The notes beneath the pieces are model-generated. The model was given only the letters and a program-made list of their open reading frames with translations, was not told the origin of the DNA and did no database searches. DNA of 64,000 nt from Cyanobium sp. ATX 6F1 (GTDB lineage: Bacteria; Cyanobacteriota; Cyanobacteriia; PCC-6307; Cyanobiaceae): contig NZ_JAGQCS010000004.1 of the NCBI RefSeq assembly GCF_024346315.1, forward strand, positions 124,001 to 188,000. The letters run 5' to 3'. How positions within the stretch are numbered: position 1 is the first letter of the stretch; each line of letters starts with the position of its first letter. The translations under genes were made by a program, and so were the position numbers. Shown one piece after another: positions 18,692-43,238 of the stretch.

Positions 18692-18748
18692 GTGGCGAGT
18701 TCGGTGGGCCAACTTAAGGTTGGATCTAGCTGATCAGGCGGTTCGCCC

Positions 18749-20608
18749 ATGACCGACACGGCCTTCTCCCGCCCCGCAGCTGCTCCGAGCGGGCCGTCGG
18801 ATCAGACCCTGGTGGAGATCCTGAACATCGCCACCGCCCTCAGCGGTGCCGGCGATCTGCGCACCCTGTTGCACCTGATCCTGACCAAATCCCGCCAGCT
18901 CACGGGCAGTGATGCCGGCAGCATCTTTTTGGTGGAGCGCGTGGATCAGCGCAAGGATCCTGGTGGTGTGGACAAGCTCTGGTTCGCGGTTTCCCAGAAC
19001 GCCAGCCTGGCGAGCCGATCGAGGCTGGCTGGTCAGCAGGATGACATCCATGAGGAGCTCTCCGATCTGCGTTTCCCGCTCACCTCCGAGCGCTTGGTGG
19101 GCTGGAGTGCCCTCACCGGCGAGGTGCTCAACATCCCCGACGTCTATCAGCTCGATCCAGCCCTGCCTTACCGCTTCGACAGCACCGTCGACAAGGAACT
19201 GGGTTACCGGGCCGTGTCGATGCTCACCGTGCCGATGCGCTCCACCTCAGGCGAAACGGTGGGGGTGATGCAGCTGATCAACCGCAAGATTGACCCCGCC
19301 ACCGTGATCAGCGCTGAAACGGCCCAGACGCTGGTGCGTCCGTTCGATGCCTTTGATCAGAGCCTGATTGAGGCCCTGGCCTCTCAGGCGGCGGTTTGCG
19401 TCGAGCGCACCCAGTTGCTGGAGGCCCAGCGGCAGCTGATCGATTCGATGATCACCCTGCTGGCGGGGGCCATCGATGCCAAGAGCCCCTACACCGGCGG
19501 CCACTGCGCCCGGGTGCCGGAATTGGCGCTGATGCTGGCCCGAGAGGCCGAAGAGACCACGGCGGGCCCCCTGGCTGAGTTCTCGCTCGGCGGAGAGGAG
19601 GACTGGCGTGAGTTCCGCATCGGCGCCTGGCTGCACGACTGCGGCAAGATCACCACCCCTGAATACGTGGTCGACAAGGCCACCAAACTTGAAACCAACT
19701 ACAACCGCATCCACGAAATCCGCACCCGTTTCGAGGTGCTGCTGCGGGATGCCCGCATTGTCTGGTTTGAAGGGGTGATCAACGGAGCGGATCGCGAACA
19801 GCTGGACAAGGCCTACAAGCAGCGGGAGGCAGAGCTCAAGGACCAGTTCACCTTCGTGGCTGAGTGCAACCTCGGGGGTGAGTTCCTGGGCCCTGAGCTG
19901 GTGGAGCGCCTGCATGCCATCGGTGCCCAGAGCTGGCAGCGCCATTTCGACAGTTCCCTGGGCCTGGCCTGGGAGGAGCTTTCACGCCACACCCAACTGC
20001 TTCAGACGCTGCCCGCGGAGGAGTCCCTGCTGGCGGATAAGTCGTGTCACATCATCCCCCGCGAGGACAGCCAGATCCCTGACGCCCGCTACGGCTTCAA
20101 GATGGAGGTTCCCGAGCACCTCTACAACCTCGGGGAACTGCACAACCTCTCGGTCTCCCGCGGCACCCTCACCGACGAGGAGCGCTACAAGATCAACGAG
20201 CACATCGTGCAGACGATCATCATGCTCGAGGCTCTGCCGTTCCCCGCCAATCTCTCGCGGGTGGCGGAGTATGCGGGTACCCACCACGAGACCCTCGACG
20301 GCAAGGGCTACCCGCGCAAGCTCACGGGCGAGCAGCTTTCGGTGCCGTCGCGGATCATGGCGATCGCCGACATCTTCGAGGCGCTCACGGCATCCGATCG
20401 CCCCTACAAGAAGGCCAAGTCGTTGTCGGAATGCCTCAAGATCCTGGCCGGCTTCCGCGACCGCCAGCACATTGACGCCGACCTGTTCGAGCTGTTCCTG
20501 CGCTCCGGCATCTACCAGAACTATGCCGATCTCTTCCTGCTGCCTGAGCAGATCGACGAGGTGGATGTGGAGATATTCCTGCGCCCAGCTGCCAAGGGCG
20601 GTAGTTGA
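18749..20608 (+). CDS. GAF / HD-GYP domain protein, putative c-di-GMP phosphodiesterase
   Basis: The product has 619 residues. Residues about 15-215 form a GAF sensor domain (TLVEILNIATALSGAGDLRTLL, DAGSIFLVERV, GYRAVSMLTVPMRS, VGVMQLINRK). The HD-GYP part begins near residue 235 (LLAGAIDAKSPYTGGHCARV). It has His296-Asp297 in WLHDCGKI, HHETLDGKGYP at residues 512-522 including Gly520-Tyr521-Pro522, and a DIFEALTASDRPYKK ending. An insertion of about 190 residues separates the two HD-GYP halves, longer than in minimal HD-GYP proteins. HD-GYP enzymes hydrolyse cyclic di-GMP and so favour release from surfaces. It starts 57 bp after chat1. A degenerate piece of its 5' end recurs at 31893. Confidence 0.88.
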   Translation: MTDTAFSRPAAAPSGPSDQTLVEILNIATALSGAGDLRTLLHLILTKSRQLTGSDAGSIFLVERVDQRKDPGGVDKLWFAVSQNASLASRSRLAGQQDDIHEELSDLRFPLTSERLVGWSALTGEVLNIPDVYQLDPALPYRFDSTVDKELGYRAVSMLTVPMRSTSGETVGVMQLINRKIDPATVISAETAQTLVRPFDAFDQSLIEALASQAAVCVERTQLLEAQRQLIDSMITLLAGAIDAKSPYTGGHCARVPELALMLAREAEETTAGPLAEFSLGGEEDWREFRIGAWLHDCGKITTPEYVVDKATKLETNYNRIHEIRTRFEVLLRDARIVWFEGVINGADREQLDKAYKQREAELKDQFTFVAECNLGGEFLGPELVERLHAIGAQSWQRHFDSSLGLAWEELSRHTQLLQTLPAEESLLADKSCHIIPREDSQIPDARYGFKMEVPEHLYNLGELHNLSVSRGTLTDEERYKINEHIVQTIIMLEALPFPANLSRVAEYAGTHHETLDGKGYPRKLTGEQLSVPSRIMAIADIFEALTASDRPYKKAKSLSECLKILAGFRDRQHIDADLFELFLRSGIYQNYADLFLLPEQIDEVDVEIFLRPAAKGGS

Positions 20609-20630
20609 GCGCTGATCGGGGATCCCCAAC

Positions 20631-22634: not shown

Positions 22635-23499
22635 GGTCCGTCAGGGTGTCAAGGGTGGGCCCCAGGGCCCGCTGCAGGCTGTCATCGACGGCCACCCGCA
22701 GCCCATCCGCCGTTGGTTGCGTGGGATCGCCCCCGGGCAGCCAGCTGTGGCGGGCCCAGAACGATTCGAGGCTCCTCAGCTCCTCCAATCGCGCGATCAT
22801 CTGGTGTTGCCAGTTGTACCAGGGAGCCATGCCGTCGGCGATCGTGCGGCGGCCCATCGCCGCCTTGCGCGCCAGCCGCCCGCGGCTGAGCAGGGGCAGG
22901 TGGGCGCACCTCAGGTGCTGGCGGTGGGCGAACAGGCTCTGGGCGCGGATGGATGGGCGCAGTTCGTGGGCGCCGGCCGCGAGCCAGGCCGAGGCGGTGT
23001 TGCGGAAGATCACCTTGCCACCGAACGGCAGGCGGAAATAGTTGAACGAACCCGCGATGATCGCTTCCACCAGACGTGGATCCAGCGAGGGTGAGAAGGG
23101 TTGATCCGGCAGGGAGCGCACCTGAAGAACGCGGTAGTGATTGAGGTTGGTCTCATCAAAATCCGACGTGGAAAGCCAGTTTTCCACCTGGTAATGCAGG
23201 GCGTTGATGGTGTCGGGCAGGCTTTCAATCAGCTCCCGTAGCCCTGACGGAGCGATCAGAATTTCATCGGCATCAAAGGGGTAGAACCACTCGGGAGCGG
23301 AGGCCTGGGCCACCTCCACCAGGGCGTTCATGAACGCCTCTTCGATGAAAGCTTCCTCCTCGAAGCGCACCACATGGATTCGTGCACCCAACGGCGACGC
23401 CTGCAAGGCCGCCAGGCCAGTGGCGGTGCCATCGCTGCTGCCGTGGTCGAGCACATAGGCCACATCAACGTGGTGCTGGAGGGCGTACACCAGCGCCAC
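22471..23499 (-). CDS. GT2-like glycosyltransferase; true start probably upstream
   Basis: The frame gives 342 residues from GTG 23499. It has the GT-A features HGSSDGTATGL (nucleotide-sugar region) and WFYPFDADEILI with the metal-binding DAD, then FRLPFGGKVIFRN and HRQHLRCAHLPLLSRGR, typical of large-cyanobacterial GT2_4-type enzymes. The frame stays open upstream to a TAA at 23575-23577 and encodes PRIIGLLKVKNEWPLAAV, the expected first beta strand of the fold, but with no ATG, GTG or TTG there. The start is therefore either a rare ATT/ATC codon near 23539-23544 or the gene is 5'-truncated. It overlaps the GT41 gene tail-to-tail by 164 bp. A damaged copy lies at 31955-32178. Confidence 0.75.
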   Translation of the reverse strand: MALVYALQHHVDVAYVLDHGSSDGTATGLAALQASPLGARIHVVRFEEEAFIEEAFMNALVEVAQASAPEWFYPFDADEILIAPSGLRELIESLPDTINALHYQVENWLSTSDFDETNLNHYRVLQVRSLPDQPFSPSLDPRLVEAIIAGSFNYFRLPFGGKVIFRNTASAWLAAGAHELRPSIRAQSLFAHRQHLRCAHLPLLSRGRLARKAAMGRRTIADGMAPWYNWQHQMIARLEELRSLESFWARHSWLPGGDPTQPTADGLRVAVDDSLQRALGPTLDTLTDLRLDLSERCAAGAPADAPLSLPADLYRLALRACAPHNARTPGHGPPPAAGATLP

Positions 23500-23693
23500 C
23501 GCCGCCAGGGGCCACTCGTTTTTGACCTTCAGCAGGCCAATGATGCGCGGCGCTGGGGAGATGGCTTGAAACCGTTAGGGGGCAAGGATAGGTGCGCCAT
23601 TGGGCACGACGATGAAGCCATGTTTAGTAGCGAGGGCTACGGATTAGCTGCTGCAGTGATGCAGCACTTAGCAGATTCTCAGTGATCAATTAT
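23414..23693. repeat. Duplicated segment, copy 1: GT2 5' end plus tpsA2 leader
   Basis: About 280 bp here are nearly identical to 32018-32297. The copy starts inside the GT2-like coding region (around its SDGTATGL codons), runs through the start of that gene and stops shortly before the tpsA2 start. Only a handful of substitutions are visible, for example GTACACCAGCG against GTGCACCAGGG. This block marks one edge of the tandem duplication that created tpsA3 or tpsA2. Confidence 0.9.
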
Positions 23694-23758: not shown

Positions 23759-26700
23759 ATGGCGCTGCGTCATGCCATCGGTCTTTGGGCGCTAATCCTG
23801 GCTGGAGCGCCTGCCATGGCGGGCGAAGTGAGCGCCAGCGGCGGCGCCCTGGGCCTGGGCACCGCGGTGAACGGCCAGCTGGGCGGCAGCTGCGCATCGG
23901 GCCTCTGCCAGGTGGGCGGCGGCACGGCGGCGGGCCGTAACCTTTTTCACCGCTTTTCCGCCTTCGACACGCGCGGCGGCATCACGGGGGTGAATTTCTC
24001 CACCGGCGGCGCCCAAAACGTGTTCGTTGGGGTGACGAGCCCCCTGGGCAGCTTCATCGACAAACTTGTCTCGTTCTCTAGCCCCGGCAACCTGTTCTGG
24101 CTCTCCCCGGGCGGCATCGCCATCAGCGGCGCCGGCGGTTTCGCCAACATCCAGCAGCTGAACCTGAGCACCGCCACCGGCTGGCGCGTGGGCAACGGTG
24201 TATTCGATGCGGCGGGCACCACAGCCGGCCAGGCGGCCCTGCTCAGCGGCACACCGGGCCTAGGGGCGGCTGGTGCCCTCACCGATCCGGCCAGCCTGGC
24301 GGCGCTCGGCCTGCAGAAGAACGGCGATCTGAGCCTTTCAGACGGCCTGCTCACCGTCGATCAGAGCCTGCTGCTCGATGCCCAGGGCGGCAACGTGCTG
24401 CTGCAGGCGGCCGGGATCCAGGCGCCCGGGGCCCAGGTGGCGATCACCGGGGCCTCGGTTTCACTGCAATCCAGCACGGTGGATGTGAGCGGCTCCAGCG
24501 GCGGCGGCACGGTGCGCCTGGGCGGTGGCCTGCTGGGAGCCGATCCCACGATCACCAACGCCCAACGCACGAGCGTGGATGGGGCCAGCGCGGTCCGCGC
24601 CGATGCCACGGCCCAGGGTTCGGGCGGCACCGTGGTGGTCTACGGCACCGACAGCATCAAGGTGGAAGGCGCCCTCTCGGCCCGCGGGGGCCCCCAGGGC
24701 GGCGATGGCGGCCTGGTGGAAACCTCCAGCCGCGGCGAGCTGGTGGTGAACCAGGCGCCGGACGCTTCCGCCCCGAAGGGCCAAGGCGGCACGTGGCTGA
24801 TCGATCCCAACAACGTCACGATCCAGGCAACGGGGCCCGACAGCAACGTCACCGCCCCGCCGGCCGTGATCACCACCGGCGACAGCGCGGTGCTCACCAC
24901 CAGCACCCTTGAGACCGCGCTCAATGCCGGCACCAACGTGAGTGTGGTGACCAGCGCCGGCGGCACCCAGGCGGGCGACATCACCGTGGCCTCACCGATC
25001 AGCAAAACGGCGGGGGGTAACGCCACGCTCACGCTCACGGCCTACAACAACATCAACCTCAACGCGAACATCAGCAGCAGCGTTGGACAGCTGAATCTCA
25101 CGCTCAACCCCGACAGTGATGCCAGTGGCGGTGGGACCACCAGCCTGGCTACTGGTGCCACCCTCGCCCTCAATGGCGGCACGGCGGCCTTCAACGGCAG
25201 CACTTCCTTGGCGGGCACGATCAGCGGCAGCACGATCACCGGGTCAGAGATTGCCTCAAGTAACGCAACGCTGAGCAACATCACGTTCGGCTCGAATCTG
25301 TCGACCACAGGGGGGTTGAATCTTTCTGGAACGATCGGGCTGGCCAATGGAATCACGTTGAACAAAGGCATCAGCAGCGACTGGTATGCAGCCCCGGGCA
25401 CGCAGTTAACGACTGGCGGGACTGCTGTGATCAACAGCAGCGGCGGTAACATCATTGCGGGCAATGGCGGTCCTGGAACGTTCGGAATCGGCAGCGGCGT
25501 GACGCTGCAGGGCTATGGCACGTTGACGACCAACTCATCGGCAACGCTGAACAACCAGGGCACGATTCGTGCCTCCACGGCTGGGCAGGTGTTCTCGATT
25601 AAACCAACGACGCTGAACAACACGGGTACCATTGCTACCACCTTGGGAAGTATCGGGATCTTCCCCACCAATCCCTTCTCCAATGCTGGTGTTCTAGAGA
25701 TCGGCCCGAACACCAGCATCAGCGCGAAAAGCTTCACCAATGCGGCGGGCGGCATCATCCGCGGCGGTTTAGGTCTGGCGCAGGGGAGCCTCTTACTCCA
25801 AGGCGATAGTACTTCTCCTTCTGCTACTCTCACCAACCTCGGCACCATCAGCCCCGGAGGCGATGGCGTCGCGGGCTGGCTGACCCTGTCTGGGGGCGAC
25901 CTTGTCCTGGGCAGCACCTCAGTCCTTAATCTCGAAATTGGCGGGCCCATTAATGGCAGCCAATTCGACTGGATAACAGTTAGTGGCAACGTGAGCCTCG
26001 GTGGCACGATCAACACCCAACTTATCAATGGTTTTAGCCCAAGCCTTGGCCAGAGCTTCGATGTGATCTCAAACGACCCATTAACGGTCACAGGCAGCTT
26101 TGCTACCTCGAATCTGCCCTCGGGGTTCAACGGCGCGATCGTGGGCAGCGTCTACCGCCTCACCAACTCAGGTCTGAGCTGTCTTGGCATTTGCTGGGAT
26201 GGCGGTGACGGCACCACCGCCTGGGAAAACCCGGCGAATTGGACAAGTGATCAGTTGCCCACCACCAGCGATGTGGCCTACCTGAACCTGGTGGCTGGTG
26301 TCGATGTGACCCTCTCCAGCAGCCAGAGCATCAAGGGGTTGAACAGCAACGCCGGCAACAACCTCACGATCAATCCTGGTGGCACGTTGACGCTGAATGA
26401 TCCAGGAACAAGCTCGCTATTGGATGGTGGGCTGACCATCAGTGGTGGCACGTTGACCACCAAAGGAGCCTTAACACTGAACGGATCCTCGGTGTGGGCC
26501 GGCGGCACCCTTGATGGAACGGGAACGCTGACGGTGTCTCCAGCGGCCAAATTGGTGGTGAACGGCGGCGGCACCTATGGCTTGAGCCAACTGACGAATC
26601 AGGGGATAGTGCAATGGACGAGCGGCAATGTTGATTTTAGTGCAAATGGAGTGATCACTAACTCACTTTTGTTCGACGTGCAGACCGATAGCATCTGGGG

Positions 26701-29700
26701 CAACAAAGGCTTGTTCGCGATTGAGTTCAATAACCTGAACGGAATACTGCGCAAGAGTGCTGGTACGGGTACTGCGACCTTGGGAGCAGGGGGCAATCGA
26801 GTGAATCTGACGAACCGCGGATCAGTGGAGGTGAGCGCGGGAACGCTGGCGATCAGCCCTGCGTCGGCAATGCAGAACAATGGCATAATCGAAATTGCAT
26901 CGGGAGCAACTTTCCAGGTTGCTTCAGGAGGCCTCACCAACAACGGCATTCTTTCGGGCTTTGGCACCATTGATGTGGGCGCCGGCAATACGCTCACCAA
27001 CCTCTTGTTCATCTACCCCGGCAGCGCTAGCACTAGTACTGCGGGAACCCTGAGTCTCATCGGCGACCTAGCTCTGGGCGGGGCCTCCGTGCTCAACCTC
27101 GACCTGGGCGGTGCCACACCCGGTAGCCAATACGACCGGCTAGCGGTTTCGGGCAACGTGAGCCTTGGTGGCACGATCAACACCCAGCTGATCAATGCCT
27201 ACGCCCCTAGCCCCGGTCAAAGCTTCGATGTGATCACATCCGGCGGAACGGCCACCGGCAGCTTTGCCAGCTCGAATCTGCCTTCGGGTGTCAACGGGGC
27301 GATCGTGGGCAGCGTCTACCGCCTCACCAACTCCGGCCTGAGCTGCCTGGGCGTCTGCTGGGATGGCGGTGGCGGCACCACCGGCTGGGAAACCCTGGCG
27401 AATTGGACAAGCGATAAGTTGCCCACCACCACCGATGTGGCCTACCTGAATCTGGTAGCTGGTGTCGATGTGACCCTCTCCAGCAGCCAGAGCATCAAGG
27501 GGTTGAACAGCATCTCCGGCAACAGCCTCACGATCAATTCCGGGGGGGCGTTGACGCTGAACGATCCAGGAACGGCCTCCAACCTTGCTGGCAATCTCAC
27601 GGTCAGTGGCACCCTGAACATTCAATCGCCCCTCAGCGCATCGTCGTTGGCCCTCAGTGGCGGAGCGTTGGCCGGCAGCGGCAGCCTCACGGTTTCTAAT
27701 GCCTTCTCGCGTACGGGCGGAACTACGGGCACCACCCTCACCGGGGTCACGCTCAACCAGGCCAGCGGTGATCTCAGCCCGGGCGCCTGGACCGTTAATG
27801 GACCGGTGTCGTTTACGGCGGCGGCAGGAAACCTGCTCGTCGATGGACCCGTGACGGCCACCACCCTGCTGGGCCGCGGTGCCACAGGGCTGACGCTGCA
27901 GCCCGGTGTCGTGCTGAACGCCACGGCAAGCACGGGGAGTGCCTTGGTGCTCGATGCCGGCACGGGCGCCTTCACCAACCTGGCCGGCGCCGGGGCGCTA
28001 GCGGTGGCACCAGGGGCGCGCTGGTTGGTCTATTCCGCCAGCCCCCTCACCGACAACCGCGGCGGCTTGAGCTATGCCTTCAAGCAATACGGCATCACTT
28101 ACGGCAGCGCGAGCCCTGTATTGGGCGCCGGCAATGGCTTCCTCTACAGCGCCACGCCAACGGTCACGGCCAGCCTCACCGGCAGCATCAGCAAGACCTA
28201 CGACGGCACCGTGGCCGCCCCGATCGCCGCTGGCAACTATCTCGTCAGTGGCGCGATCGATGGCGACACCGTACAGGTGAACAATTCCACGCTCGGCACG
28301 TACACAACGGCCGGGACCGGGGGGCGTGGTGCGAAGGATGTTGGCAGTGGAAAGGATGTCTCCGTTTCTGGGGTGACGATTTCCGGCGCCAGCGAGGGTG
28401 CGGTTGCGGTGTATGGCTACCAGTTGGCCAGCTCAACAGCGAGCGGTACCGCCCTGGGCACGATCAATCCGCTCGCGCTCGCCGGTGCCGCGATTGCGCC
28501 CTCCAGTTCCATCTACGGCGCGGCCCTCAGCCCCGGTGCAGTCAGCTTCTCCAATCTCTTCTCCGGCGATCTCGTCGGTTCTGCCACCTCCGTCAATACC
28601 TCAACCCTCAGCACCGGCGGCACCCCCATCGTTGGTACCTACACCCAAACGGCCAGCGCCACCCTCAGCGGTAGCGATGCGGCGAACTACAGCTTCTCAG
28701 GCTTCACATCAACTCCCAACTACACGATCAATCCCCTCAGCCTCTCGGTCACGGGCGTTACCCCCCTCAGCAAGACCTACGACGGCACCACTCAGGCCAC
28801 CCTCAACAATACCGCCGCCGCCGTGTCAGGCCTCTTAGGCACCGACGGTGTGACGCTTAACGGCCTAACCGCAACCGGTCAATTCGCCGATCCCAACGCC
28901 GGCCTGGCCAAGCCCGTTGCCGTCTCCGGCTTCGTGATCAGTGGCCCCGATGCGGCCAATTACACCCTTCTTCAGCCGGGCGGCCTGACCGCCGACATCA
29001 CCATCCGCCCCCTCGGCACCTGGAGCGCCTCCACCCCTGGCAACTGGAGCGATGCGGCCAACTGGGATGTCCTGCCCAGTGGCTCTAACGTGGCCGTCGT
29101 GGTGATCCCCGTGGGTAGCGGCGCCCTCACTTACGACGCCGCCGCCGGTAGCACCAACCTGCAGAGCCTCATCATCGACCAGAGCCTCAGCATCACCGGT
29201 GGTTCCCTGGCGGTGAGCGGTGCGACATCCGTGGCCAGCGGCGCCAGCTTGAGTCTCAGTGGTGGCAATTTTTCGACCACCTCCCTGAGCAACCAGGGGC
29301 TGGTGAACGGCAGCAGTCCGCTCGTGGTGAATGGCTCCTACACCGAGAGCGGCGGCAGTCTCGGTAGCGGTTTCTCCAGCGTTGCGATCACCCAGGCCAG
29401 CGGCGACCTCAACCTCAGCAGCGTGGGATCCACGGGCCCGGTGAGCCTGACCAGCAGCGCTGGCGCCCTCAACCTCAGCGGCGCTGTGAGCTCAGCCGGT
29501 GGGCCCATCAACCTGATCGCCACCGGCGCCACGGATCTTTCCTCCACCGCGTCGCTCATCAGCCCCGGCGCTCTGATCTCCGTGAGCAGCGGCGGTCCGC
29601 TGAGCCTGAACGGCGCTCGCATCGATGCCAGCGGAGCCAGTGCCGCCGGCACGGTGCAGCTCGATGGCAGCAGCATCACCCTCACCAACGCCACGGTGAA

Positions 29701-30520
29701 CACTTCTGGTGCCAGCGAAGGTGGTTCGATTCAGCTGGGCCTGAAATCCCTGCCCAGTAGCGTTACGCTCACCAACTCCAGCCTGGTGGCGGATCCCCCT
29801 GGTCTTGGCGGTTCCATCTCCATCGACGGCCTTGCCATCGCCTTGGTTGGCTCCACCTTGAACGTGGTGGGCTTGAGCGGCGGTTCCATCCTGCTGGGTT
29901 CTGCCAATACCGCCACCTTGAGCCTCGATGCTGCCACCTCTCTCGTGGGCGGTGGTGATGGCACCTTCAGCCTGTTCGGCGGTTCGATTCTCAACAACGC
30001 CAGCATCATCGGTGGCCGGTTGTTTTTGAATGGGGTGGGATTGGGCGCTGTGAGTGTGTTGCCTAATCTGCCCTTGAGCGCTGTTTTGTCCCCCATCGTC
30101 GCGCTGCCCTCTGAGGTGGCGTTCCAGCTCAGCGTCGATCTCGGTCAGAGCTCTCCGCTCTCCAGCGTTGATTACACGGCGCCGGGTTCGTTGCTGGTCG
30201 CCCAGTGGGAGCAGCTGGGGATCGATCCGCTTTCTATCACCCTCACGGAATCGGCCTTCCTCTATGCCAATTTCTTATTGAATGAAGGTCTTTCAACCAG
30301 TGGTCTGTGGACGTTCGATCCATCCGTGCAGCAGCTCACCCCCTCACAGGTGGAAGAGCAGTTCACCGCTTCCGAGCAGCGAGCGATGGAAGCAACGGCG
30401 GCGAAACTAGGTCTTGACCCCACTGACGGCCTATTGGCGCCTACTCCTGCTCAATTGCAGGCGAGCCTGCAGAAGGTGATCAAAGCTGTGCGCGGGCGGA
30501 TCCGAGGAGGTCAGCCATGA
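23759..30520 (+). CDS. TpsA2: giant TPS exoprotein with YDG/MBG modules
   Basis: The product has 2253 residues. The signal peptide is MALRHAIGLWALILAGAPAMA. Its TPS domain (about 25-175) is almost identical to that of TpsA1 and TpsA3. In order there follow a GGDGGLVETSSRGEL / WLIDPNNVTI segment, beta-helix-like filler, two WDGG/NW modules (about 784-880 and 1177-1267; SGLSCLG.CWDGG, LPTT.DVAYLNLV), a YDG module (about 1470), one MBG-like module (about 1574-1659), a second YDG module (SKTYDGTTQATL, about 1660), and a WSASTPGNWSDAANW module. The C-terminal tail reads PSQVEEQFTASEQRAMEATA then LQKVIKAVRGRIRGG. YDG and MBG modules are known from large bacterial adhesins. Its TGA overlaps the ATG of chat2 (ATGA), implying translational coupling. 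Confidence 0.9.
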   Translation: MALRHAIGLWALILAGAPAMAGEVSASGGALGLGTAVNGQLGGSCASGLCQVGGGTAAGRNLFHRFSAFDTRGGITGVNFSTGGAQNVFVGVTSPLGSFIDKLVSFSSPGNLFWLSPGGIAISGAGGFANIQQLNLSTATGWRVGNGVFDAAGTTAGQAALLSGTPGLGAAGALTDPASLAALGLQKNGDLSLSDGLLTVDQSLLLDAQGGNVLLQAAGIQAPGAQVAITGASVSLQSSTVDVSGSSGGGTVRLGGGLLGADPTITNAQRTSVDGASAVRADATAQGSGGTVVVYGTDSIKVEGALSARGGPQGGDGGLVETSSRGELVVNQAPDASAPKGQGGTWLIDPNNVTIQATGPDSNVTAPPAVITTGDSAVLTTSTLETALNAGTNVSVVTSAGGTQAGDITVASPISKTAGGNATLTLTAYNNINLNANISSSVGQLNLTLNPDSDASGGGTTSLATGATLALNGGTAAFNGSTSLAGTISGSTITGSEIASSNATLSNITFGSNLSTTGGLNLSGTIGLANGITLNKGISSDWYAAPGTQLTTGGTAVINSSGGNIIAGNGGPGTFGIGSGVTLQGYGTLTTNSSATLNNQGTIRASTAGQVFSIKPTTLNNTGTIATTLGSIGIFPTNPFSNAGVLEIGPNTSISAKSFTNAAGGIIRGGLGLAQGSLLLQGDSTSPSATLTNLGTISPGGDGVAGWLTLSGGDLVLGSTSVLNLEIGGPINGSQFDWITVSGNVSLGGTINTQLINGFSPSLGQSFDVISNDPLTVTGSFATSNLPSGFNGAIVGSVYRLTNSGLSCLGICWDGGDGTTAWENPANWTSDQLPTTSDVAYLNLVAGVDVTLSSSQSIKGLNSNAGNNLTINPGGTLTLNDPGTSSLLDGGLTISGGTLTTKGALTLNGSSVWAGGTLDGTGTLTVSPAAKLVVNGGGTYGLSQLTNQGIVQWTSGNVDFSANGVITNSLLFDVQTDSIWGNKGLFAIEFNNLNGILRKSAGTGTATLGAGGNRVNLTNRGSVEVSAGTLAISPASAMQNNGIIEIASGATFQVASGGLTNNGILSGFGTIDVGAGNTLTNLLFIYPGSASTSTAGTLSLIGDLALGGASVLNLDLGGATPGSQYDRLAVSGNVSLGGTINTQLINAYAPSPGQSFDVITSGGTATGSFASSNLPSGVNGAIVGSVYRLTNSGLSCLGVCWDGGGGTTGWETLANWTSDKLPTTTDVAYLNLVAGVDVTLSSSQSIKGLNSISGNSLTINSGGALTLNDPGTASNLAGNLTVSGTLNIQSPLSASSLALSGGALAGSGSLTVSNAFSRTGGTTGTTLTGVTLNQASGDLSPGAWTVNGPVSFTAAAGNLLVDGPVTATTLLGRGATGLTLQPGVVLNATASTGSALVLDAGTGAFTNLAGAGALAVAPGARWLVYSASPLTDNRGGLSYAFKQYGITYGSASPVLGAGNGFLYSATPTVTASLTGSISKTYDGTVAAPIAAGNYLVSGAIDGDTVQVNNSTLGTYTTAGTGGRGAKDVGSGKDVSVSGVTISGASEGAVAVYGYQLASSTASGTALGTINPLALAGAAIAPSSSIYGAALSPGAVSFSNLFSGDLVGSATSVNTSTLSTGGTPIVGTYTQTASATLSGSDAANYSFSGFTSTPNYTINPLSLSVTGVTPLSKTYDGTTQATLNNTAAAVSGLLGTDGVTLNGLTATGQFADPNAGLAKPVAVSGFVISGPDAANYTLLQPGGLTADITIRPLGTWSASTPGNWSDAANWDVLPSGSNVAVVVIPVGSGALTYDAAAGSTNLQSLIIDQSLSITGGSLAVSGATSVASGASLSLSGGNFSTTSLSNQGLVNGSSPLVVNGSYTESGGSLGSGFSSVAITQASGDLNLSSVGSTGPVSLTSSAGALNLSGAVSSAGGPINLIATGATDLSSTASLISPGALISVSSGGPLSLNGARIDASGASAAGTVQLDGSSITLTNATVNTSGASEGGSIQLGLKSLPSSVTLTNSSLVADPPGLGGSISIDGLAIALVGSTLNVVGLSGGSILLGSANTATLSLDAATSLVGGGDGTFSLFGGSILNNASIIGGRLFLNGVGLGAVSVLPNLPLSAVLSPIVALPSEVAFQLSVDLGQSSPLSSVDYTAPGSLLVAQWEQLGIDPLSITLTESAFLYANFLLNEGLSTSGLWTFDPSVQQLTPSQVEEQFTASEQRAMEATAAKLGLDPTDGLLAPTPAQLQASLQKVIKAVRGRIRGGQP

Positions 30521-31797
30521 TCCGGCCAGCACGTCATTGGCCGAGCCGTTACCTGGTGGCCTCGCTGCCGTTGTTCCTCGGTCTCCCTGTAACGACACCA
30601 GTTGCCTTGGCGGCTCCGCCAGCCGCCGCTGTGCAGCTGGCGCGCGCTTCCGATGGTGCTTCCCCCTTCAATCCGGCCCTCTACAACCCGGCGATCCTGC
30701 GCATCGGCTTCAGCGAAGCCAAGGGCAAGTCCGCCAATCCCGAGGCCGATTCCTTCCTCGACATCACCTTGGTGCCACCCGATGGGGATGTGCATGGTGC
30801 CCGCAGTGAGGTTTCGCTCAAGAGCTTCAACGAGCTGCTGCGCAAGCTCTATGGCCAACTGGCGAGTCAATCGCCGCTGGATGTCAACGATCCGAACTCA
30901 CCGGCTCGGCAGCTGTATTCGATTCTGATCCAGCCGATTGCCGCGCAGCTGCAAAAGCACAAGATCACCACGCTGCTGATCTCCGCCGATGCGGGGCTGC
31001 AGGCTGTGCCGTTCGCGGCCCTCCACGACGGCCAGAGCTACCTGGGTGAGCGCTACGGCCTCGGCATGACGCCGGCCCTGGGGCTCACCAAGCTGGCAGT
31101 GCTGCCCGAGAAAGCCCAACCACAACTGCTGGCGGCCGGGGCCTCCGAGTTCGTGGGCCTCAATGCCCTGCCTCTGGTGCCCCAGGAGCTCGACCGGGTG
31201 GGCAAGGGCAGGGCGAACCAGAGCTTCCTCAACAGGAGCTTTACGCCCCAAGTGCTGCTCCAGAAGGCGGGCGATCCACTGATCGATCGGGTGCACATCG
31301 CCACCCACGCCGAATTCCTGCCCGGCGGGCCAGCGGCGGCTCGCCTGTACTCAGGCACCGGTCCGATGTCCCTGCGTCAGTTATCCCAGCTGCGCCAACG
31401 CCGCGGTGAGGGTCAGCTGGATGTGTTCAGCCTCAGCGCCTGCCGCACCGCCCTCGGTGATGCCGACAGCGAACTGGGTTTCGCGGGGTTGGCGCTCCAG
31501 GCGGGCTCCCGCAGTGCGATCGGCAGCCTCTGGTACATCGACGATGTGGCCACTTCGGCGCTGTTCGTGCAGTTCTACCGCTACCTGGACCAGGGCCTTC
31601 CCAAGGCCGAGGCGCTGCAATTCACCCGGCGCGCCATGGCGAACGGCCGGATGCGGCTCGTGGGCGACCAGGTGATCGGGGCCGGGGGCGATGTGCTCCT
31701 CTCCAAACTGACCACGTCCCAGCAACGTCGCATCAGCACAGGTCTGCAGCACCCCTTCTTCTGGGCGGGCATCCAGTTGCTGGGAACGCCTTGGTGA
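30517..31797 (+). CDS. Exported CHAT-domain caspase-like protein (CHAT2)
   Basis: The product has 426 residues and is a paralogue of CHAT1 along its whole length. A signal peptide (LVASLPLFLGLPVTTPVALAA) is followed by the N-terminal domain (YNPAILRIGFSEAKG, FLDITLVPPDGD, LLRKLYGQLASQSPLDVNDP) and the CHAT domain (ITTLLISADAGLQAVPFAAL). The dyad is intact: His264 in HIATHAEF and Cys309 in LSACRTALGDADSE. It ends with FFWAGIQLLGTPW. The start ATG 30517 overlaps the tpsA2 stop by 4 bp, so synthesis of both products is coupled. The target is unknown; a cis-encoded TpsA is the simplest guess. Unlike the chat1 locus, what follows is gene debris, not an intact HD-GYP gene. Confidence 0.88.
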   Translation: MIRPARHWPSRYLVASLPLFLGLPVTTPVALAAPPAAAVQLARASDGASPFNPALYNPAILRIGFSEAKGKSANPEADSFLDITLVPPDGDVHGARSEVSLKSFNELLRKLYGQLASQSPLDVNDPNSPARQLYSILIQPIAAQLQKHKITTLLISADAGLQAVPFAALHDGQSYLGERYGLGMTPALGLTKLAVLPEKAQPQLLAAGASEFVGLNALPLVPQELDRVGKGRANQSFLNRSFTPQVLLQKAGDPLIDRVHIATHAEFLPGGPAAARLYSGTGPMSLRQLSQLRQRRGEGQLDVFSLSACRTALGDADSELGFAGLALQAGSRSAIGSLWYIDDVATSALFVQFYRYLDQGLPKAEALQFTRRAMANGRMRLVGDQVIGAGGDVLLSKLTTSQQRRISTGLQHPFFWAGIQLLGTPW

Positions 31798-31892
31798 TTA
31801 GCGATTCTGGCCGTCCTTCCCCTTGCCCTGGGGATGGCTGATCCTGCGTTTATCCAGATGAGATATTCGGCATTGCACAACGCCTGAGTAGA

Positions 31893-31945
31893 CCTGAGCG
31901 GCTGTCGGACAAGACCCTGGTGGAGATCATGAACAACGTGCTGGA
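31893..31945 (+). pseudogene. Remnant of the 5' end of the GAF/HD-GYP gene
   Basis: The stretch GTCGGACAAGACCCTGGTGG continues into GAGATCATGAAC and matches 18785-18840 in the intact HD-GYP gene (SDKTLVEIMN here, SDQTLVEILN there). It lies at the same position relative to chat2 as the intact gene does relative to chat1, so homology by duplication is the best explanation. Everything downstream of about codon 30 is missing, and the sequence runs directly into a GT2 remnant on the other strand. Confidence 0.7.
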
Positions 31946-31954
31946 ACTCCACAC

Positions 31955-32178
31955 CCAGCCCTCGCGCAGCGATCAGAACTACATCGGCATCGAAGCGATA
32001 GAGCCAGTCAGGTGCGGAGGCCAGCGGCGGTGCCATCGCTGCTGCCGTGGTCGAGCACATAGGCCACATCAACGTGGTGCTGGAGGGCGTGCACCAGGGC
32101 CACCGCCGCCAGGGGCCACTCGTTTTTGACCTTCAGCAGGCCAATGATGCGCGGCGCTGGGGAGATGGCTTGAAACCG
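31955..32178 (-). pseudogene. Remnant of the GT2-like glycosyltransferase gene
   Basis: Read on the minus strand this encodes PRIIGLLKVKNEWPLAAV, then VDVAYVLDHGSSDGTAAGL, then after an internal deletion and frame change APDWLYRFDADVVLIAARGL. The matching parts of the gene at 22471-23574 read VDVAYVLDHGSSDGTATGL and APEWFYPFDADEILIAPSGL. About 50 codons between the two blocks are gone and the rest of the gene is absent, so it cannot make an enzyme. As in the intact copy, the frame is closed by a TAA (32179-32181) without an ATG before the conserved region. Confidence 0.8.
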
Positions 32179-32297
32179 TTAGGGGGCAAGGATAGGTGCG
32201 CCGTTGGGCAAGTCGATGAAGTCATGTTTAGTAGCGAGGGCTACGGATTAGCTGCTGCAGTGATGCAGCACTTAGCAGATTCTCAGTGATCGATCAA
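32018..32297. repeat. Duplicated segment, copy 2: GT2 5' end plus tpsA3 leader
   Basis: This is the partner of 23414-23693. The near-identity runs from the SDGTAAGL codons of the GT2 remnant across its start and through the hairpin GCTGCA-GTGA-TGCAGC (32254-32269) to the TCTCAGTGATC block. Past it, the two tpsA leaders diverge for about 60 bp before similarity resumes in the signal-peptide codons. Confidence 0.9.
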
Positions 32298-32351
32298 GGA
32301 TCAACCGCCAAAAGGTCTGACATAGGCCTTAGTTTCTTGAAACGGACTCGA
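32182..32351 (+). promoter_or_regulatory. tpsA3 upstream region with the shared hairpin
   Basis: A 170 bp leader before tpsA3 conserves the block and hairpin (32254-32269) found before tpsA2, so both genes probably share transcriptional or post-transcriptional control. No clear -35/-10 pair or ribosome binding site could be assigned by eye. Confidence 0.45.
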
Positions 32352-35300
32352 ATGGCCCCATCCATCGCGCTGCGTCATGCCATCGGCCTTTGGGCTCTGA
32401 TCCTGGCGGGGGGTCCTGTCGTCGCCGGCGAAGTGAGCGCCACCGGCGGCGCCCTGGGCCTGGGCACCGCGGTGAACGGCCAGCTGGGCGGCAGCTGCGG
32501 CTTAGGCCTGTGCCAGGTGGGCGGTGGCACGGCAGCAGGCCGCAACCTCTTCCATCGCTTTTCCGCCTTCGACACGCGCGGCGGCATCACGGGGGTGAAT
32601 TTCTCCACCGGCGGCGCCCAAAACGTGTTCGTTGGGGTGACGAGCCCCCTGGGCAGCTTCATCGACAAACTTGTCTCGTTCTCGAGCCCCGGCAACCTGT
32701 TCTGGCTCTCCCCGGGCGGCATCGCCATCAGCGGCGCCGGCGGTTTCGCCAACATCCAGCAGCTGAACCTGAGCACCGCCACGGGCTGGCGGGTGGGCAA
32801 TGGTGTGTTCGATGCGGCGGGCACCACAGCCGGTCAGGCGGCCCTGTTGAGCGGAGCGCCTGTGAGCGGCCTTGCCGGTGCGGTGAACGATCCGGCAACT
32901 CTTGCGGCCCTGGGGATCCAGAAGAACGGCGATCTCAGCATCGCCGGCGGTCTGCTGACGGTGGATCAGGGCCTGCTGCTGGATGCCCAGGGGGGCAACG
33001 TGCTGCTGCAGGCGGCGAGGCTGCAGGCGAAGGGCGGGTCGGTGGAGATCCAGGGCCAGTCCGTTCGGCAGGACGCACCGATCGAATCCAGCGGCACGAG
33101 CGGTGGCTCGGTGACGATCAACGCGGCGGGCGCTCTCACCAACGGCGCACCGATCCAGGCCAACGGGTCCAGTGCTGGCGGCACCATCAACCTGCAGGCC
33201 GGCACCAGCCTCACGAGTTCGTCCGCGATCACCGCCACGGGTACGGGGCCAATGGCCAAGGGCGGCACGATCGAGCTCACGGCCCCCAGCGTGACCCTTG
33301 CGGCGGCCCAAGTGGATGCCAGCGGCGCCGGCGGCGGCGGTGTGATCAGGGTGGGCGGCGGGGTTCAGGGCAGCCCCCTCAGCCTGGGGGGCGCCAACGC
33401 CATCAACACCATGGTGGACAGCAGCAGCAGCTTGAAGGCCGATACCACCCAGGCGGGCAACGGCGGCCAGGTGGTGGTGTGGGCTGAGAGGGCCACCCTG
33501 GTGGATGGGGCGATCAGCGCCCGCGGCGGCCCGGCGGGCGGTGATGGCGGCTTCGTGGAAACCTCAGGCCGCGAGCAATTGGCGGTCAGTCGGGCGCCGG
33601 ATGCCTCGGCCCCTTTGGGCAAGGGAGGCACCTGGCTGCTGGATCCCAACAACCTCACGGTGAATGCCAGCGGGCCCGACAGCAATGTCAGCGGCTTCCC
33701 CAACGCAACCACCACAGGCGACAGCGCCGTCATCGCCGCCTCCACAATCAATGCAGCCTTGAACGCGGGCACCAGCGTGAGCCTGGCCACCAGTGCCGGT
33801 GGTGCCCAGGCGGGTGACATCACGGTCTCCGCCCCGATCAGCAAAACGGCCGGCGGCGCTGCCTCCCTCAGCCTGAGCGCCCACAACAACATCAACCTCA
33901 ATGCCAACATTTCCTCATTAGCGGGTGCATTGAACCTGAATTTGGTTGCCAATTCGGACAACGTCGGCGGTGGATCCGTACAGAGGCAGACTTCTGGTAC
34001 CTTCATCGACTTGAACGGCGGTAACTTGAACCTTGCTGGCAATGGCGACTTCACGCTAATTGACGACTTTCGGAATCTTCGGTTTGACAAAAGTGGAACA
34101 GGTTCCTACCTGGCGCCCTTCTTCGTTCGGTTGACCGGCGTGACGATTGGCACCGACATGACCTTCAGTAACGAAGTGGGAATCGTCAACGATCTGCTGC
34201 TGGCCAATGGTGTGACGGTGAACAAAGAAGCGAACATCTGGCGCTTTGGAACCACCGGTCTGCGCACCCTGGGGCTGGCCCCAGGGGCCACCAGCGCCAC
34301 CGTCATCAGCAGCGGGGGCTTCATTCTTGCCGGCCAGGGGGTCATCGGCCAGACCCTGACGATCGGCCCTGGCGTGACGCTGCAGAGCTCCGGCGCAGGC
34401 ACCACGCAGCTGAGAGACAGCACCGCCAGCACCATCATCAACAACGGCACAATCGCTTCCACCACTGGTGGCACCTGGTCGATTTTGCCCGCCGGGTTCA
34501 TCAACAACGGTGCGGTGACAGCCAACAACGGCACGGTGTCGATCAGTTCGACGAGTTGGAGCAATGGGAGCACGGGTGTCTTCAATGTTGGCCCTTCGGG
34601 CACATTGAATCTGGGCGGTACGTTCACCAATGCCAACCCAGGTGCCTCCAATCGCACCGGGGGTTCGGTCTTCATTCCCGGCACCTTCGACCTGGCGGGT
34701 GCCACGTTGGATGTGGGCTCGGCGGGCCTGTTCGGCAGCGGTGGGCTGACGCAGCTCAGCGGCACGCTTTTAGGCGGCACGCTGATCAACACCGATACCA
34801 CCCCTGTGCTGACCTCGGGCTTAGGCACGCTCAATGGGATGACGATCGGCTCCAACGTGGGCATCAACGGTACGTTGCGCATCGCCAACGATCTGCTGCT
34901 GACTAATGGCGTGACAGTGAACAAGGGAGCGAATAATTGGAACTTCGTCACCACAGGAGTTCGTACCCTCGGCCTGGCTCCAGGCGCCAGCAGCGCCACG
35001 GTCAGCAGCAGTGGTGGCGCCATCTTCGCCGGGTCGGGGGTCAGCGGCCAGACCCTGACGATCGGCCCTGGCGTGACGCTGCAAAGTTCCGGCGCAGGCA
35101 CCACGACGCTGACCAACAGCTCTGCGGCCCCAATCATCAACAACGGCACAATCGCTTCCACCACCGGCGGCACCTGGTCCATTACGCCCACCAGCTTCAC
35201 CAACGGCGCCACAGGAACACTCGTTGTTTCAGCGGGCTCCACGCTCGCTACCGCTAACAACTCCTTCTCCAGCGATGGCGCGATCCAGGGCAGCGGCACC

Positions 35301-38300
35301 ATCAATGTGGGCACCGGTACGGTAACCAACAACGGCACGATCAAACCCGGCGGTACGGGCGCGGCGGGCACGCTCAACATCACCGGCAATTTCGTCAGCA
35401 GCGCAAGCGGCATCATTGAAGCCGAACTGGGAGGCACCACCGCTGGCAGTCAGTACGACCGGCTGGCGGTTTCAGGCAACGTGACCCTGGGGGGCACCTT
35501 GAACAGCCCCCTGATCAATGGCTTCGTACCCTCCGGGCAAAGCTTTGATGTGATCACCGCCGGCGGCACCGCCACCGGCAGCTTTGCCAGCTCCAATCTG
35601 CCTTCTGGGTTCAACGGGGCGATTGTGGGCAGCGTCTACCGGCTCACTAACTCCGGCCTGGGCTGCCTGGGGATCTGCTGGGATGGCGGCGGTGGTGACA
35701 CCAGCTGGGAAAATGTGGCGAACTGGGGTGGAGATCTTTTACCCACCGCCATTGATGTGGCCTACCTGAACCTGGTGGGCGGTGTCGATGTGACCCTCTC
35801 CAGCAGCCAGAGCGTCAAAGGGCTGAACAGCATCGCTGGAAACAACCTCACGATCAATTCCGGTGGGTCGTTGACGCTGAATGATTCAGGCACGAGTTCC
35901 AGCTTGAACGGTGGACTGACGATCAACGGCGGCACGCTAGGTGGCACGGGTGATGTGACGGTCAGTGGGGCGTTTGACGTCACCTCCTCCAGCTACCTGA
36001 GTGGACCTGGATTGTTCACGACGCAGGGCACCAGCACGGTGAACATGCCCAGTGAGCTCGGAGGCTACTTGAACCTTGAGGGCGGTAAGAACTGGGTGAA
36101 CGAAGGCACACTGACGATCGGTGGTGATGACTTGATCTACTTTGGCTTTGTCGGAGGGGGCGCCAACACGCTGACGAATGCGGTGGGCGCGACCTTGAAT
36201 CTATCGAGCGCCGCTGGCACGCCGCTGAGCTATTGGGCCGGCACAGCGGAGGTGATCAATGCGGGGACATTGAACCAGACGGTGGTCGGTGCGCACACGA
36301 TTGACGTCAACTTCAACAACACGGGCACGGTGAATGTTGATGTGGGCACGCTGTCGATTGGCGGCAGCGGTAGCGACAGCGGCAGCTACGCGGTGGATGC
36401 GGGAACCACGCTCAACTTCAGCAGCGGTACACGCGACCTGAATGCGGGCAGCAACATCACCGGCCTGGGAACGCTGAGCGTCTCGGGTGCGACGGTGAAT
36501 GCCAACAGTGGTCTGACGATCGGCAGCAATCTGCAACTCGATGGCGGCACGCTAGGTGGCACGGGTGATGTGACGGTCAGTGGGGCGTTTGACGTCACCT
36601 CCTCCAGCTACCTGAGTGGACCTGGATTGTTCACGACGCAGGGCACCAGCACGGTGAACATGCCCAGCGTGAGTGGAGGCTCTCTAAACATTTCGAACGG
36701 TAAGAACTGGGTGAACGAAGGCACACTGACGATCGGTGGTGATGACTTGATCTACTTTGGCTTTGTCGGAGGGGGCGCCAACACGCTGACGAATGCGGTG
36801 GGCGCGACCTTGAATCTATCGAGCGCCGCTGGCACGCCGCTGAGCTATTGGGCCGGCACAGCGGAGGTGATCAATGCGGGGACATTGAACCAGACGGTGG
36901 TCGGTGCGCACACGATTGACGTCAACTTCAACAACACGGGCACGGTGAATGTTGATGTGGGCACGCTGTCGATTGGCGGTTCACTGACCCAGTCGGGCGC
37001 GATTGATGTGGCCGCTGGAGCCGTTTTTCAGAAGAGCGGCGGCTTCACCAATGCTTCCACCGGCACCCTCTCGGGCTTTGGCACCATCGATGTGGGCGCC
37101 GGCAACACGCTCACCAACCTCGGCACCATCAGCCCCGGCGGCGATGGCGTGGCGGGTGCTCTCAGCATCACCGGCGTCCTGGCCCTGAGCAGCACCTCCG
37201 TACTCAACCTCGACCTGGGCGGCGCCACGCCTGGCAGTCAATACGACCGGCTGGCGGTTTCGGGCAATGTGAACCTCGGGGGCACGATCAACACCCAACT
37301 CATCAATGGTTTTAGCCCCAGCCTGGGCCAGAACTTTGATGTGATCACATCCGGCGGCACCGCCACCGGTAGCTTTGCCGGCTCGAATCTGCCTTCTGGT
37401 TTCAATGGGGCGATCGTCTTTGGCAGCGTCTACCGGCTCACCAATTCCGGCCTGAGCTGCCTGGGGGTCTGTTGGGATGGCGGCGGTGGTGACACCAGCT
37501 GGGAAACCCTGGCCAACTGGAGTGGCGATCAATTGCCCACCACCAGCGATGTGGCCTACCTGAACCTGGTGGGCGGTGTCGATGTGACCCTCTCCAGCAG
37601 CCAGAGCGTCAAAGGTCTCAATAGCATCGTGGGTAACAACCTCACGATCAATTCCGGTGGTTTGTTGACCCTGAATGATTCAGGAACGAGCTCCACATTG
37701 AATGGTGAACTAGCCATCTACGATGGCGCGTTGACGACCAATGGAGCGCTAACACTGAATGGAAATTCGGTGTGGGCCGGCGGCACCCTTGCTGGAGCGG
37801 GATCATTAACGGTGGGGAGTGGGGCAACGCTGGTGGTGGGTGGCGGGAGTGGGATTGTTCCTGGCACGTATGGCTTGAGTCGGCTGACGAATCAGGGGAC
37901 GGTTCAATGGTTGGCTGAGGGATTAAATTATAGTGCTGATGGTGTAATTGATAACAGCGGCTTGTTCGATGTGGAGATCGGTGATGTCTGGGATGCTGCC
38001 GGATCATTCACGTTCGCGTTCAACAATTTGACTGGAGGAGAGCTGCGCAAGAGTGGGCTGGGAATTAGCTTCTTGGGTAGCGTGAATCTGACCAACAACG
38101 GCTTGGTGGATGTGAGATCTGGCACGTTAGTGGTTAGCCCTAATTCTTTGATACAGAATAATGGGCTGATTCAGACGGCTTCAGATGCAAGCTTTCAGGT
38201 CCAATCCGACTTGACGAATGCCTCCACCGGCACCCTCTCGGGTGGCATTGAAGTCTATTTTGGCACGTTGATCAACTTTGGCACGATCAGCCCCGGTGGT

Positions 38301-41300
38301 GATGGCGTGGTTGGAGTAATAGGCGCCGACAACCTGATCTTGGGCAGCACCTCCGTGCTCAACCTGGACATTGGTGGCGCCACGGGAAGCCAATACGACA
38401 GGCTGTTTACTGCAAACGTCGTCGGCAACGCAAGCCTCGATGGCACGATCAACGCCCAGTTGATCAATGGCTATAGCCCCAGCCCAGGCCAGAACTTCGA
38501 TGTGATCCTCTCCGCCACCACCACCGGCAGCTTTGCCAGCTCGAATCTGCCTTCGGGATTCAACGGCGCGATTGTGGGCAGCGTCTACCGACTCACCAAT
38601 TCCGGCCTGAGCTGCCTGGGCGTCTGTTGGGATGGCGGCGGCGGCACCACCGGCTGGGAAACCCTCGCCAACTGGAGCGGCGATCAATTGCCCACCACCA
38701 CCGATGTGGCCTACCTGAACCTGGTGGGCGGTGTTGATGTGACCCTCTCCAGCAGCCAGAGCGTCAAGGGGCTCAACAGCCTTGTTGCTAACAACCTCAC
38801 AATCAATTCCGGTGGGTCGTTGACACTGAACGATCCAGGCACCGCCTCCAACCTCGCTGGCGATCTCACCGTTAATGGCACCCTGAACATTGAATCGCCC
38901 CTCAGCGCATCGTCGTTGGCCCTCAACGGCGGAGCTTTGGGTGGCAGCGGCAGCCTCACGGTTTCCAATGCCTTCACGCGTACGGGCGGAACCACGGGCA
39001 CCAGCCTCACCGGGGTCACGCTCAACCAGGCCAGCGGTGATCTCAGCCCGGGCGCCTGGAGCGTCAATGGACCGGTGTCGTTCACGGCGGCGGCTGGAAA
39101 CCTGCTGATCGATGGACCCGTGACGGCCACCACCCTGCTGGGCCGCGGTGCCACAGGGCTGACGCTGCAGCCCGGTGTCGTGCTGAACGCCACGGCAAGC
39201 ACGGGGAGTTCCTTGGTGCTCGAGGCCGGCACGGGCGCCTTCACCAACCTGGCCGGCGCCGGGGCGCTAGCGGTCGCACCAGGGGCGCGCTGGTTGGTCT
39301 ATTCCGCCAGCCCCCTGACCGACAACCGCGGCGGCTTGAGCTATGCCTTCAAGCAATACGGCATCACCTACGGCAGTGCGACCCCCGTAGTGGGCGCCGG
39401 CAATGGCTTCCTCTACGGCGCCACGCCAACGGTCACGGCCAGCCTCACCGGCAGCATCAGCAAGACCTACGACGGCACCGTGGCAGCCCCGCTCGCGGCT
39501 GGCAACTATCTCGTCACTGGCGCGATCGACAGCGACACCGTACAGGTGAACAATCCCACGCTGGGCACGTACACATCGGCCGGGACCGGGGGGCGTGGTG
39601 CGAAGGATGCCGGCAGTGGTAAGGATGTCTCCGCTGCTGGGGTGGCGATCACCGGGGCCAGCGAGGGTGCGGTCGCGGTGTATGGCTACCAGTTGGCCAG
39701 CTCAACAGCGACCGGTACCGCCCTGGGCACGATCAATCCCCTCGCGCTCACCGGTGCCGCGATTGCGCCCTCCAGCTCCATTTACGGTTCGGCCCTCAGC
39801 CCCGGTGCGGTCAGCTTCTCCAATGTCTTTTCAGGGGATCTCGTCGGCGCCACGGCTTCCGTCAACACAGGCGGCGTGAGCAGTAGCGGCAACTCCATCG
39901 TTGGCGCCTACACCCAAACGGTCAGCACCACCCTCAGCGGTAGCGATGCGGCGAACTACAGCTTCTCAGGCTTCACATCAACTCCCAACTACACGATCAG
40001 TCCGCTGGCCCTCACAGGCGCTGCGATCGCTTCGGGCAGTTCCATCTACGGCTCAGCACTTGCCCCCGGCGCCGTCAGCTTTGGCAATCTCCTCGTAGGG
40101 GATCTCGTTGGCGCCACGGCTTCCGTCAACACAGGCGGCGTGAGCAGTAGCGGTAACTCCATCGTTGGCGCCTACACCCAATCCGCTGGCACGACCCTCA
40201 TCGGTGGCGATGCGGCGAACTACAGCTTCTCGGGCTTCACCTCAACGCCCAACTACACGATCAGCCCGCTCGCCCTCACAGGCGCGGCGATCGGCTCGGG
40301 CAGTTCCATCTACGGCTCAGCGCTCACCCCAGGCGCGGTGAGCTTTGGCAACCTCTTCTCCGGTGATCTCGTCGGAGCTGCCGCTGCGGTCAACACCTCC
40401 ACCTTGAGCACGGGCGGCAACCCGATCGTTGGTGCCTACACCCAATCCGCCAGCACGGCCCTCAGCGGCTCTGATGCGGCGAACTACAGCTTCTCGGGCT
40501 TCACATCAACGCCTAACTACACAATCAGCCCGCTGGCGCTCACAGGCGCAGCGATTGCTTCGGGCAGTTCGACCTACGGCTCTGCCCTCACCCCAGGCGC
40601 GGTGAGCTTTGGCAATCTCTTCTCCGGTGATCTCGTCGGCTCTGCCATCTCCGTCAACACCTCCATCCTCAGCACCGGCGGCCAAGCCATCGTTGGCGGT
40701 TACACCCAATCCGCCAGCACGGCCCTCAGCGGCTCTGATGCGGCGAACTACTCCTTCTCGGGCTTCACGTCAGCGTCCATCTACACGATCAGTCCCCTAG
40801 ACCTCACGGCCACGGGGGTTCTCGCGAACAACAAGGTCTACGACGGCAACACCGTGGCGACGATCAGCACCAGCGGCGCGACCCTTACGGGTCTGATCGC
40901 GGGTGACCGTGTGGCCCTTGCTGGTGGCACAGGTCTGTTCGCCGATGCCAACGTGGGCCTGGCCAAGCCCGTGGCCGTCAGCGGCTTGGGCCTTGGTGGC
41001 ACCGACGCTGCCAACTACAGCCTGCTGCCTTCCAGCAGCCTCTCCGCCGACATCGCCATCCGCCCCCTCGCCACCTGGAGCGCCTCCACTGCCGGCAACT
41101 GGAGCGATCCGGCCAACTGGGATGCCCTGCCCAGCGGCTCCAACGTGGCCGCCGTGGCGATCCCAGTCGGCAGCGGCGCCCTCACCTATGACGCCGCCGC
41201 CGGCAGCACCAACCTGCAAAGCCTCTTCAACGATCAAAACCTCAGCATCACCGGTGGTTCCCTGGCGGTGAGTGGTGCCACATCCGTGGCCAGCGGCGCC

Positions 41301-43229: not shown

Positions 43230-43238
43230 GCCTCGCCC

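Follow-up and report, generated by a model that had tools for sequence, protein, structure and literature searches.

The closest described counterpart of the locus presented here is the set of tpsA and tpsC cassettes of Neisseria meningitidis, which it resembles in having several tpsA-related copies near one tpsB gene and in the exchange of sequence between those copies (PMC3848433). In meningococcus, recombination between tpsA and the tpsA-related cassettes is documented as a rare event, the tpsC cassettes are shorter, and the exchange affects the 3' end of tpsA (PMC3848433). In our search of the literature, no paper was found that combines cyanobacterial CHAT proteins with two-partner secretion or hemagglutinin.

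The window, the whole 64-kb stretch of DNA that was analyzed, is part of contig C4 of a 2.96-Mb genome (G000), and the relatives used for comparison are picocyanobacteria, among them the genome of a sister species (G001). In order, the window contains tpsB (minus strand), tpsA1, chat1, HD-GYP, GT41, GT2 (minus strand), tpsA2, chat2, a stretch of gene debris, tpsA3, and speA (minus strand), with the following features.

5900..7624, minus strand: tpsB (Pfam ShlB, E 3e-14), the only such gene that this genome was found to have
7825..17409, plus strand: tpsA1, with DUF5650 repeats
17414..18691, plus strand: chat1 (Pfam CHAT, E 2.6e-47); the start at 17414 is probable, and the frame is open from 17021
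18749..20608, plus strand: intact HD-GYP gene (GAF and HD-GYP)
20631..22634, plus strand: intact GT41 gene (TPR and Glyco_transf_41)
22471..23555, minus strand: GT2 gene, with coding likeness to the GT2 of Synechococcus sp. CS-1328 up to 23555
23759..30520, plus strand: tpsA2, putative giant two-partner-secretion exoprotein (PF05860, E 5e-6, below the curated cut-off) with YDG repeats, collinear with the tpsA on contig C13 of G001
30517..31797, plus strand: chat2, CHAT protease gene (Pfam CHAT, E 1e-52), overlapping the tpsA2 stop
31798..31895, no strand assigned: spacer after chat2, weakly like the chat1-HD-GYP spacer (54 of 102 columns, z about 3 versus shuffles)
31896..31938, plus strand: HD-GYP 5' fragment (LSDKTLVEIMN), equivalent to 18787-18830, 86% identical over 44 columns
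31938..31958, plus strand: GT41 scrap, the first seven codons from a GTG start (GTG CTG GAA CTC CAC ACC CAG, MLELHTQ)
31957..32022, minus strand: GT2 fragment 1, equivalent to 23240-23305, 82% identical over 66 bases
32018..32159, minus strand: GT2 fragment 2 (5' part of the gene), equivalent to 23414-23555, inside a 323-bp match
32160..32351, no strand assigned: spacer common to tpsA2 and tpsA3, a copy of 23556-23758, about 95 to 96% identical up to 23700
32352..43229, plus strand: tpsA3, 3,625 amino acids (TPS domain, E 1.2e-5)

Both ShlB and POTRA_2 scored above the cut-off in tpsB, and the gene is divergent from tpsA1, which places the cognate TpsB transporter gene nearby; one copy of tpsB was found in each of G000, G001, and G069. 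The N-terminal TPS domain of the large exoprotein matched TIGR01901 (E 0.003) as well as PF05860, both below the curated cut-offs. In the genus of the window tpsA and chat are separate genes, with an overlap of 4 bp between tpsA2 and chat2. In many relatives (L033, L034, L036-L038, L041, L042, and L046-L049) CHAT makes up the C-terminal portion of a single long frame of about 950 to 4,218 amino acids, and several of these long frames have TPS-like N termini. By eye, the N-terminal stretch of chat2 (30517-31797) resembles a signal peptide, and, if this is true, the CHAT protease is predicted to be exported. There is no chat gene 3' of tpsA3, whose stop lies about 10 bp from that of the convergent speA (43227-43240). 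Within tpsA3, 35928-36364 and 36543-36979 are 97% identical over 437 bp, a recent expansion of an internal repeat.

The interval between the chat2 stop (31797) and the tpsA3 start (32352) consists of remains of HD-GYP, GT41, and GT2, after which come the GT2-tpsA spacer and the N terminus of tpsA. A BLASTN comparison of 31798-32342 with 17400-24100 gave three plus/plus matches, all collinear with the intact genes and all significant: the HD-GYP piece (E 3e-9), GT2 fragment 1 (E 4e-14), and 32018-32340 against 23414-23735 (94% over 323 bases, E 1e-141), which covers GT2 fragment 2 together with the spacer. The HD-GYP match corresponds to the 5' end of the intact gene, which starts at 18749. Thus, the preliminary description was right that an HD-GYP 5' piece on the plus strand and then a GT2 fragment on the opposite strand follow chat2 in the order seen after chat1. 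Global alignment of 31798-31940 with 18692-18835 gave a z of about 8.7 (500 shuffles), and 31891-31960 scored 56 when compared with the block, whereas the best of 200 shuffles reached 34.

Between these pieces lies the GT41 scrap, with a score of 51 against a shuffle maximum of 23. Of the 28 bases at 31931-31958, 27 are identical to those of the G001 region in which GT41 starts, just 3' of the G001 HD-GYP stop. In G001 the gene begins GTG CTG GGA CTC CAC ACC CAG GGG CAG, and the intact gene of this genome begins GTG AGT GAA CTG ACT TCG GGG CAG. The collinearity of the pieces with the intact genes, at scores far beyond chance, shows that the HD-GYP-GT41-GT2 segment was duplicated. The comparison confirms that a second set of these three genes, arranged and oriented like the first, once lay between chat2 and tpsA3.

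Other origins of the debris were considered and set aside. Chance matching was ruled out by the E values and shuffles. The sole other HD-GYP match, on contig C3, aligns from residue 206 on and not at the N terminus, and a search of the whole genome with the interval gave no matches beyond the HD-GYP and GT2 places in the window. Debris as a standard feature after chat2-type genes was rejected, since none follows the chat genes on contig C11 of this genome and on contig C13 of G001, and the sequence after either of them has no likeness to 31798..31895.

The second set of genes was lost through no fewer than three deletions, and two of these lie at 5-bp microhomologies. The joint between HD-GYP and GT41 has the microhomology GAACA, and about two bases are shared at the joint between GT41 and GT2. 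With a GT41 scrap lying between the HD-GYP and GT2 pieces, at least two deletions must have occurred there. A deletion of about 4.3 kb from the HD-GYP start to the middle of GT2, as proposed earlier, is therefore close in size to the total loss of about 4.4 kb but did not happen in a single step, the scrap having been overlooked. Likewise, a further deletion inside GT2 is real and frameshifting but smaller than the 50 or so codons first estimated: 113 bp (offsets 8717 and 8604), or about 38 codons, were lost at the microhomology AGGCC.

The debris was originally thought to end at 32178, but the copied stretch extends further, across the spacer and into the part of tpsA3 that encodes its N-terminal TPS region, with about 90% identity between 23414-24424 and 32018-33029, and the same GT2-spacer-TPS junction precedes both tpsA2 and tpsA3. 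The GT2-tpsA spacer was absent from the 150 other family genomes (151 searched). Identity steps from 82% to the left of the last joint to 94% to its right (Fisher p 0.005), which suggests that, once the deletion had happened, the right part either was held close to its twin or was copied anew. The step could alternatively come from selection on the region upstream of tpsA3, and the two readings look the same in these data. No sigma-70-like site was found in 31790-32400, which leaves a promoter explanation for the conserved spacer unsupported. In the GT2 gene of the first unit, there is no in-frame ATG, GTG, or TTG between the upstream stop and 23499, though likeness to the CS-1328 GT2 reaches 23555. 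The native GT2 start may have been cut off as the gene became linked to the spacer and tpsA, and the GT2 that was called intact may itself be 5' damaged or use an unusual start.

The genes in front of the debris have a different history. The chat2 protein was about 55% identical to that of chat1, 91% identical to the C11 chat protein, and 83 to 86% identical to the G001 C13 chat protein. In the chat tree, chat2 and the C11 chat were sisters (support 99/97) with the G001 C13 gene next (100/100), while chat1 paired with the chat on contig C23 of G001 (100/100); a forced chat1-chat2 clade was rejected (AU test, p = 2.6e-31). Collinearity of tpsA2-chat2 with the G001 C13 tpsA-chat pair extends over the known length (24335 to 31798), except for repeat expansions in tpsA2 and one stretch found only in G001. 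The products of tpsA1 and tpsA2 have in common only the N-terminal 240 or so amino acids (239 amino acids at 87%) and a distant C-terminal stretch (30%), and that of tpsA3 is 68 to 72% identical to that of tpsA2 over most of its body. Together, chat2 and the end of tpsA2 (about 1.5 kb) are 89% identical to C11, whereas C11 is a poor match for the middle of tpsA2, and G001 C13 or tpsA3 is a better one; the tpsA2-chat2 pair is thus a mosaic and no clean copy of any one gene. Likeness to C11 stops at the chat2 stop codon and gives way to the weak resemblance to the stretch after chat1, so a recombination joint lies at the end of chat. From these comparisons, the adhesin and protease genes before the debris probably originated elsewhere in the genome and were not copied from tpsA1-chat1.

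In G001, contig C23 is unbroken across tpsA1-chat1-HDGYP-GT41psi-GT2psi-speA; it has no second or third unit and is without about 19.7 kb found in the window between 23515 and 43235. The GT41 and GT2 genes of G001 are pseudogenes (L031 10411-11850), the GT2 remnant being cut within about 5 bp of the speA end. The two tpsA loci of G001, one beside tpsB and one at the C11-equivalent place, are each broken by a contig end inside the TPS domain, and the likeness of both to their counterparts (tpsA1 and the C11 locus) extends to the upstream side. Since G001 is without the 19.7 kb and has two tpsA loci, tpsA2, chat2, and tpsA3 are extra in this genome. Most simply, they would have been gained here; loss in G001 is a less likely alternative, to which the cut of its GT2 pseudogene right at speA could point.

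The preliminary description took the debris as proof of a tandem duplication of the whole TpsA-CHAT-HDGYP-GT41-GT2 unit, which holds for HD-GYP, GT41, and GT2 but goes too far for tpsA and chat. One tandem duplication of the complete tpsA1-chat1-HDGYP-GT41-GT2 unit, with the second copy then diverging and losing its tail, would fit the order and orientation of the pieces and the weak likeness between the spacers after chat1 and chat2. We nevertheless consider it extremely unlikely, given that sisterhood of chat1 and chat2 was rejected, that chat2 is younger than the genus split, that the bodies of tpsA1 and tpsA2 are unrelated outside the TPS domain and the distant C terminus, and that the sister genome has none of the extra copies. 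In its simple form this explanation is already refuted, and it is viable only if tpsA and chat of copy 2 were later replaced in full. Either local copying was confined to the HDGYP-GT41-GT2-TPS segment, or there was a true tandem copy whose tpsA-chat was later replaced from the other tpsA-chat locus, and the debris is no proof of the latter.

The array from tpsA2 to tpsA3 might instead predate the split from the sister species and have been lost in G001 by a deletion from GT2 to speA. The GT2 pseudogene without a 5' end, which meets the end of speA to within about 5 bp, is what such a deletion would leave, the identity of the debris (82 to 86%) is near the 82% between both genomes, and the GT41 scrap is G001-like. 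However, the spacer is absent from G001, and the chat2 and C11 chat genes split after their common ancestor had separated from G001, unless gene conversion made the two alike, which makes an old array unlikely. The G001-like scrap would also suit an insertion of the whole tpsA2-chat2-debris-tpsA3 stretch between GT2 and speA as foreign DNA from a related strain, and the 19.7 kb do form a clean extra segment there. Against this, the GT2 5' part and spacer at both junctions are 94% alike and found in this genome only, and no mobile-element genes were identified between the units; we regard foreign origin as very unlikely.

An intact second tpsA-chat-HDGYP-GT41-GT2 unit, which the preliminary description proposed to look for in related genomes, was found in none of the 151 family genomes. 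Full-length HD-GYP genes of this type occurred at most once per genome, and GT2 was present in 3 of the 151, in one copy each. Synechococcus sp. CS-1328 has the order tpsA-chat twice, cyclase (minus strand), HD-GYP, GT41, GT2 (minus strand), and speA (minus strand), such that the cyclase gene separates the TpsA-CHAT genes from the HDGYP-GT41-GT2-speA block. In three other genomes (G197, G077, and G054), HD-GYP abuts speA without GT41, GT2, or adjacent TpsA-CHAT genes, and HD-GYP adjoins speA in several genera. Because HD-GYP lies beside speA without TpsA-CHAT elsewhere, HD-GYP, GT41, and GT2 belong to the speA neighborhood and came to lie beside tpsA-chat. The supposed five-gene unit is thus no natural one, and adjacency alone gives no ground for assigning HD-GYP, GT41, and GT2 to the adhesin system.

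The reading that we favor, and hold to be somewhat probable as a whole, is that the debris is a decayed second copy of a segment running from HD-GYP through GT41, GT2, and the spacer to the start of tpsA, shaped by TPS exchange, a C11-type tpsA-chat, and deletions. In the order of events that we infer, a tpsA gene and its spacer would first have come to adjoin GT2 at its 5' end, in front of speA. Near-identical TPS-domain stretches of neighboring tpsA genes would then have undergone unequal exchange, which would have duplicated what they enclosed, including HD-GYP, GT41, GT2, and the spacer. This genome has one TpsB and four copies of the TPS domain at about 90% amino acid identity, and stretches of this kind are long and similar enough for homologous exchange. 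Such an exchange would yield the same GT2-spacer-tpsA joint twice, as seen. In copy 2, the tpsA body and chat would have been, or become, those of the C11 tpsA-chat locus, brought in by recombination that used two conserved places, the N-terminal TPS domain and the chat 3' end. The redundant HD-GYP, GT41, and GT2 copies, presumably not under selection, would have decayed through the deletions described above, while the spacer and TPS start were kept alike, perhaps for their role in driving and exporting tpsA3. Several findings stand against this route: the HD-GYP and GT41 scraps measure only 44 and 28 bp, the tpsA2-chat2 pair is a mosaic, and the GT41 scrap is closer to G001 than to the GT41 start of its own genome, which is unexpected under a recent local duplication unless the intact copy has changed since. 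As a more general idea, possible but doubtful, the TPS domain and the chat 3' end could act as paired recombination anchors, whole adhesin-protease cassettes being swapped between loci with one TpsB and non-adhesion neighbors being duplicated and lost as collateral.

In contrast to N. meningitidis, the copies in this locus are giant tpsA genes that are complete and have chat partners, and it is the N-terminal TPS domain that serves as the conserved anchor; neither a growth-inhibition toxin gene nor an immunity gene was identified. The pattern known from bacterial genome evolution in general, in which redundant genes are lost after a tandem duplication, resembles the locus in its collinear pieces, in the microhomology at deletion joints, and in flanking repeats long enough for homologous exchange. 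However, the leading genes of the second unit, tpsA2 and chat2, are in this case no sisters of those of the first. Overall, the locus is a case of ordinary genome evolution that is well documented here, and its scraps record how an array of giant surface-protein genes was built in a picocyanobacterium, by copying and mixing tpsA-chat parts and not by repeating one operon.
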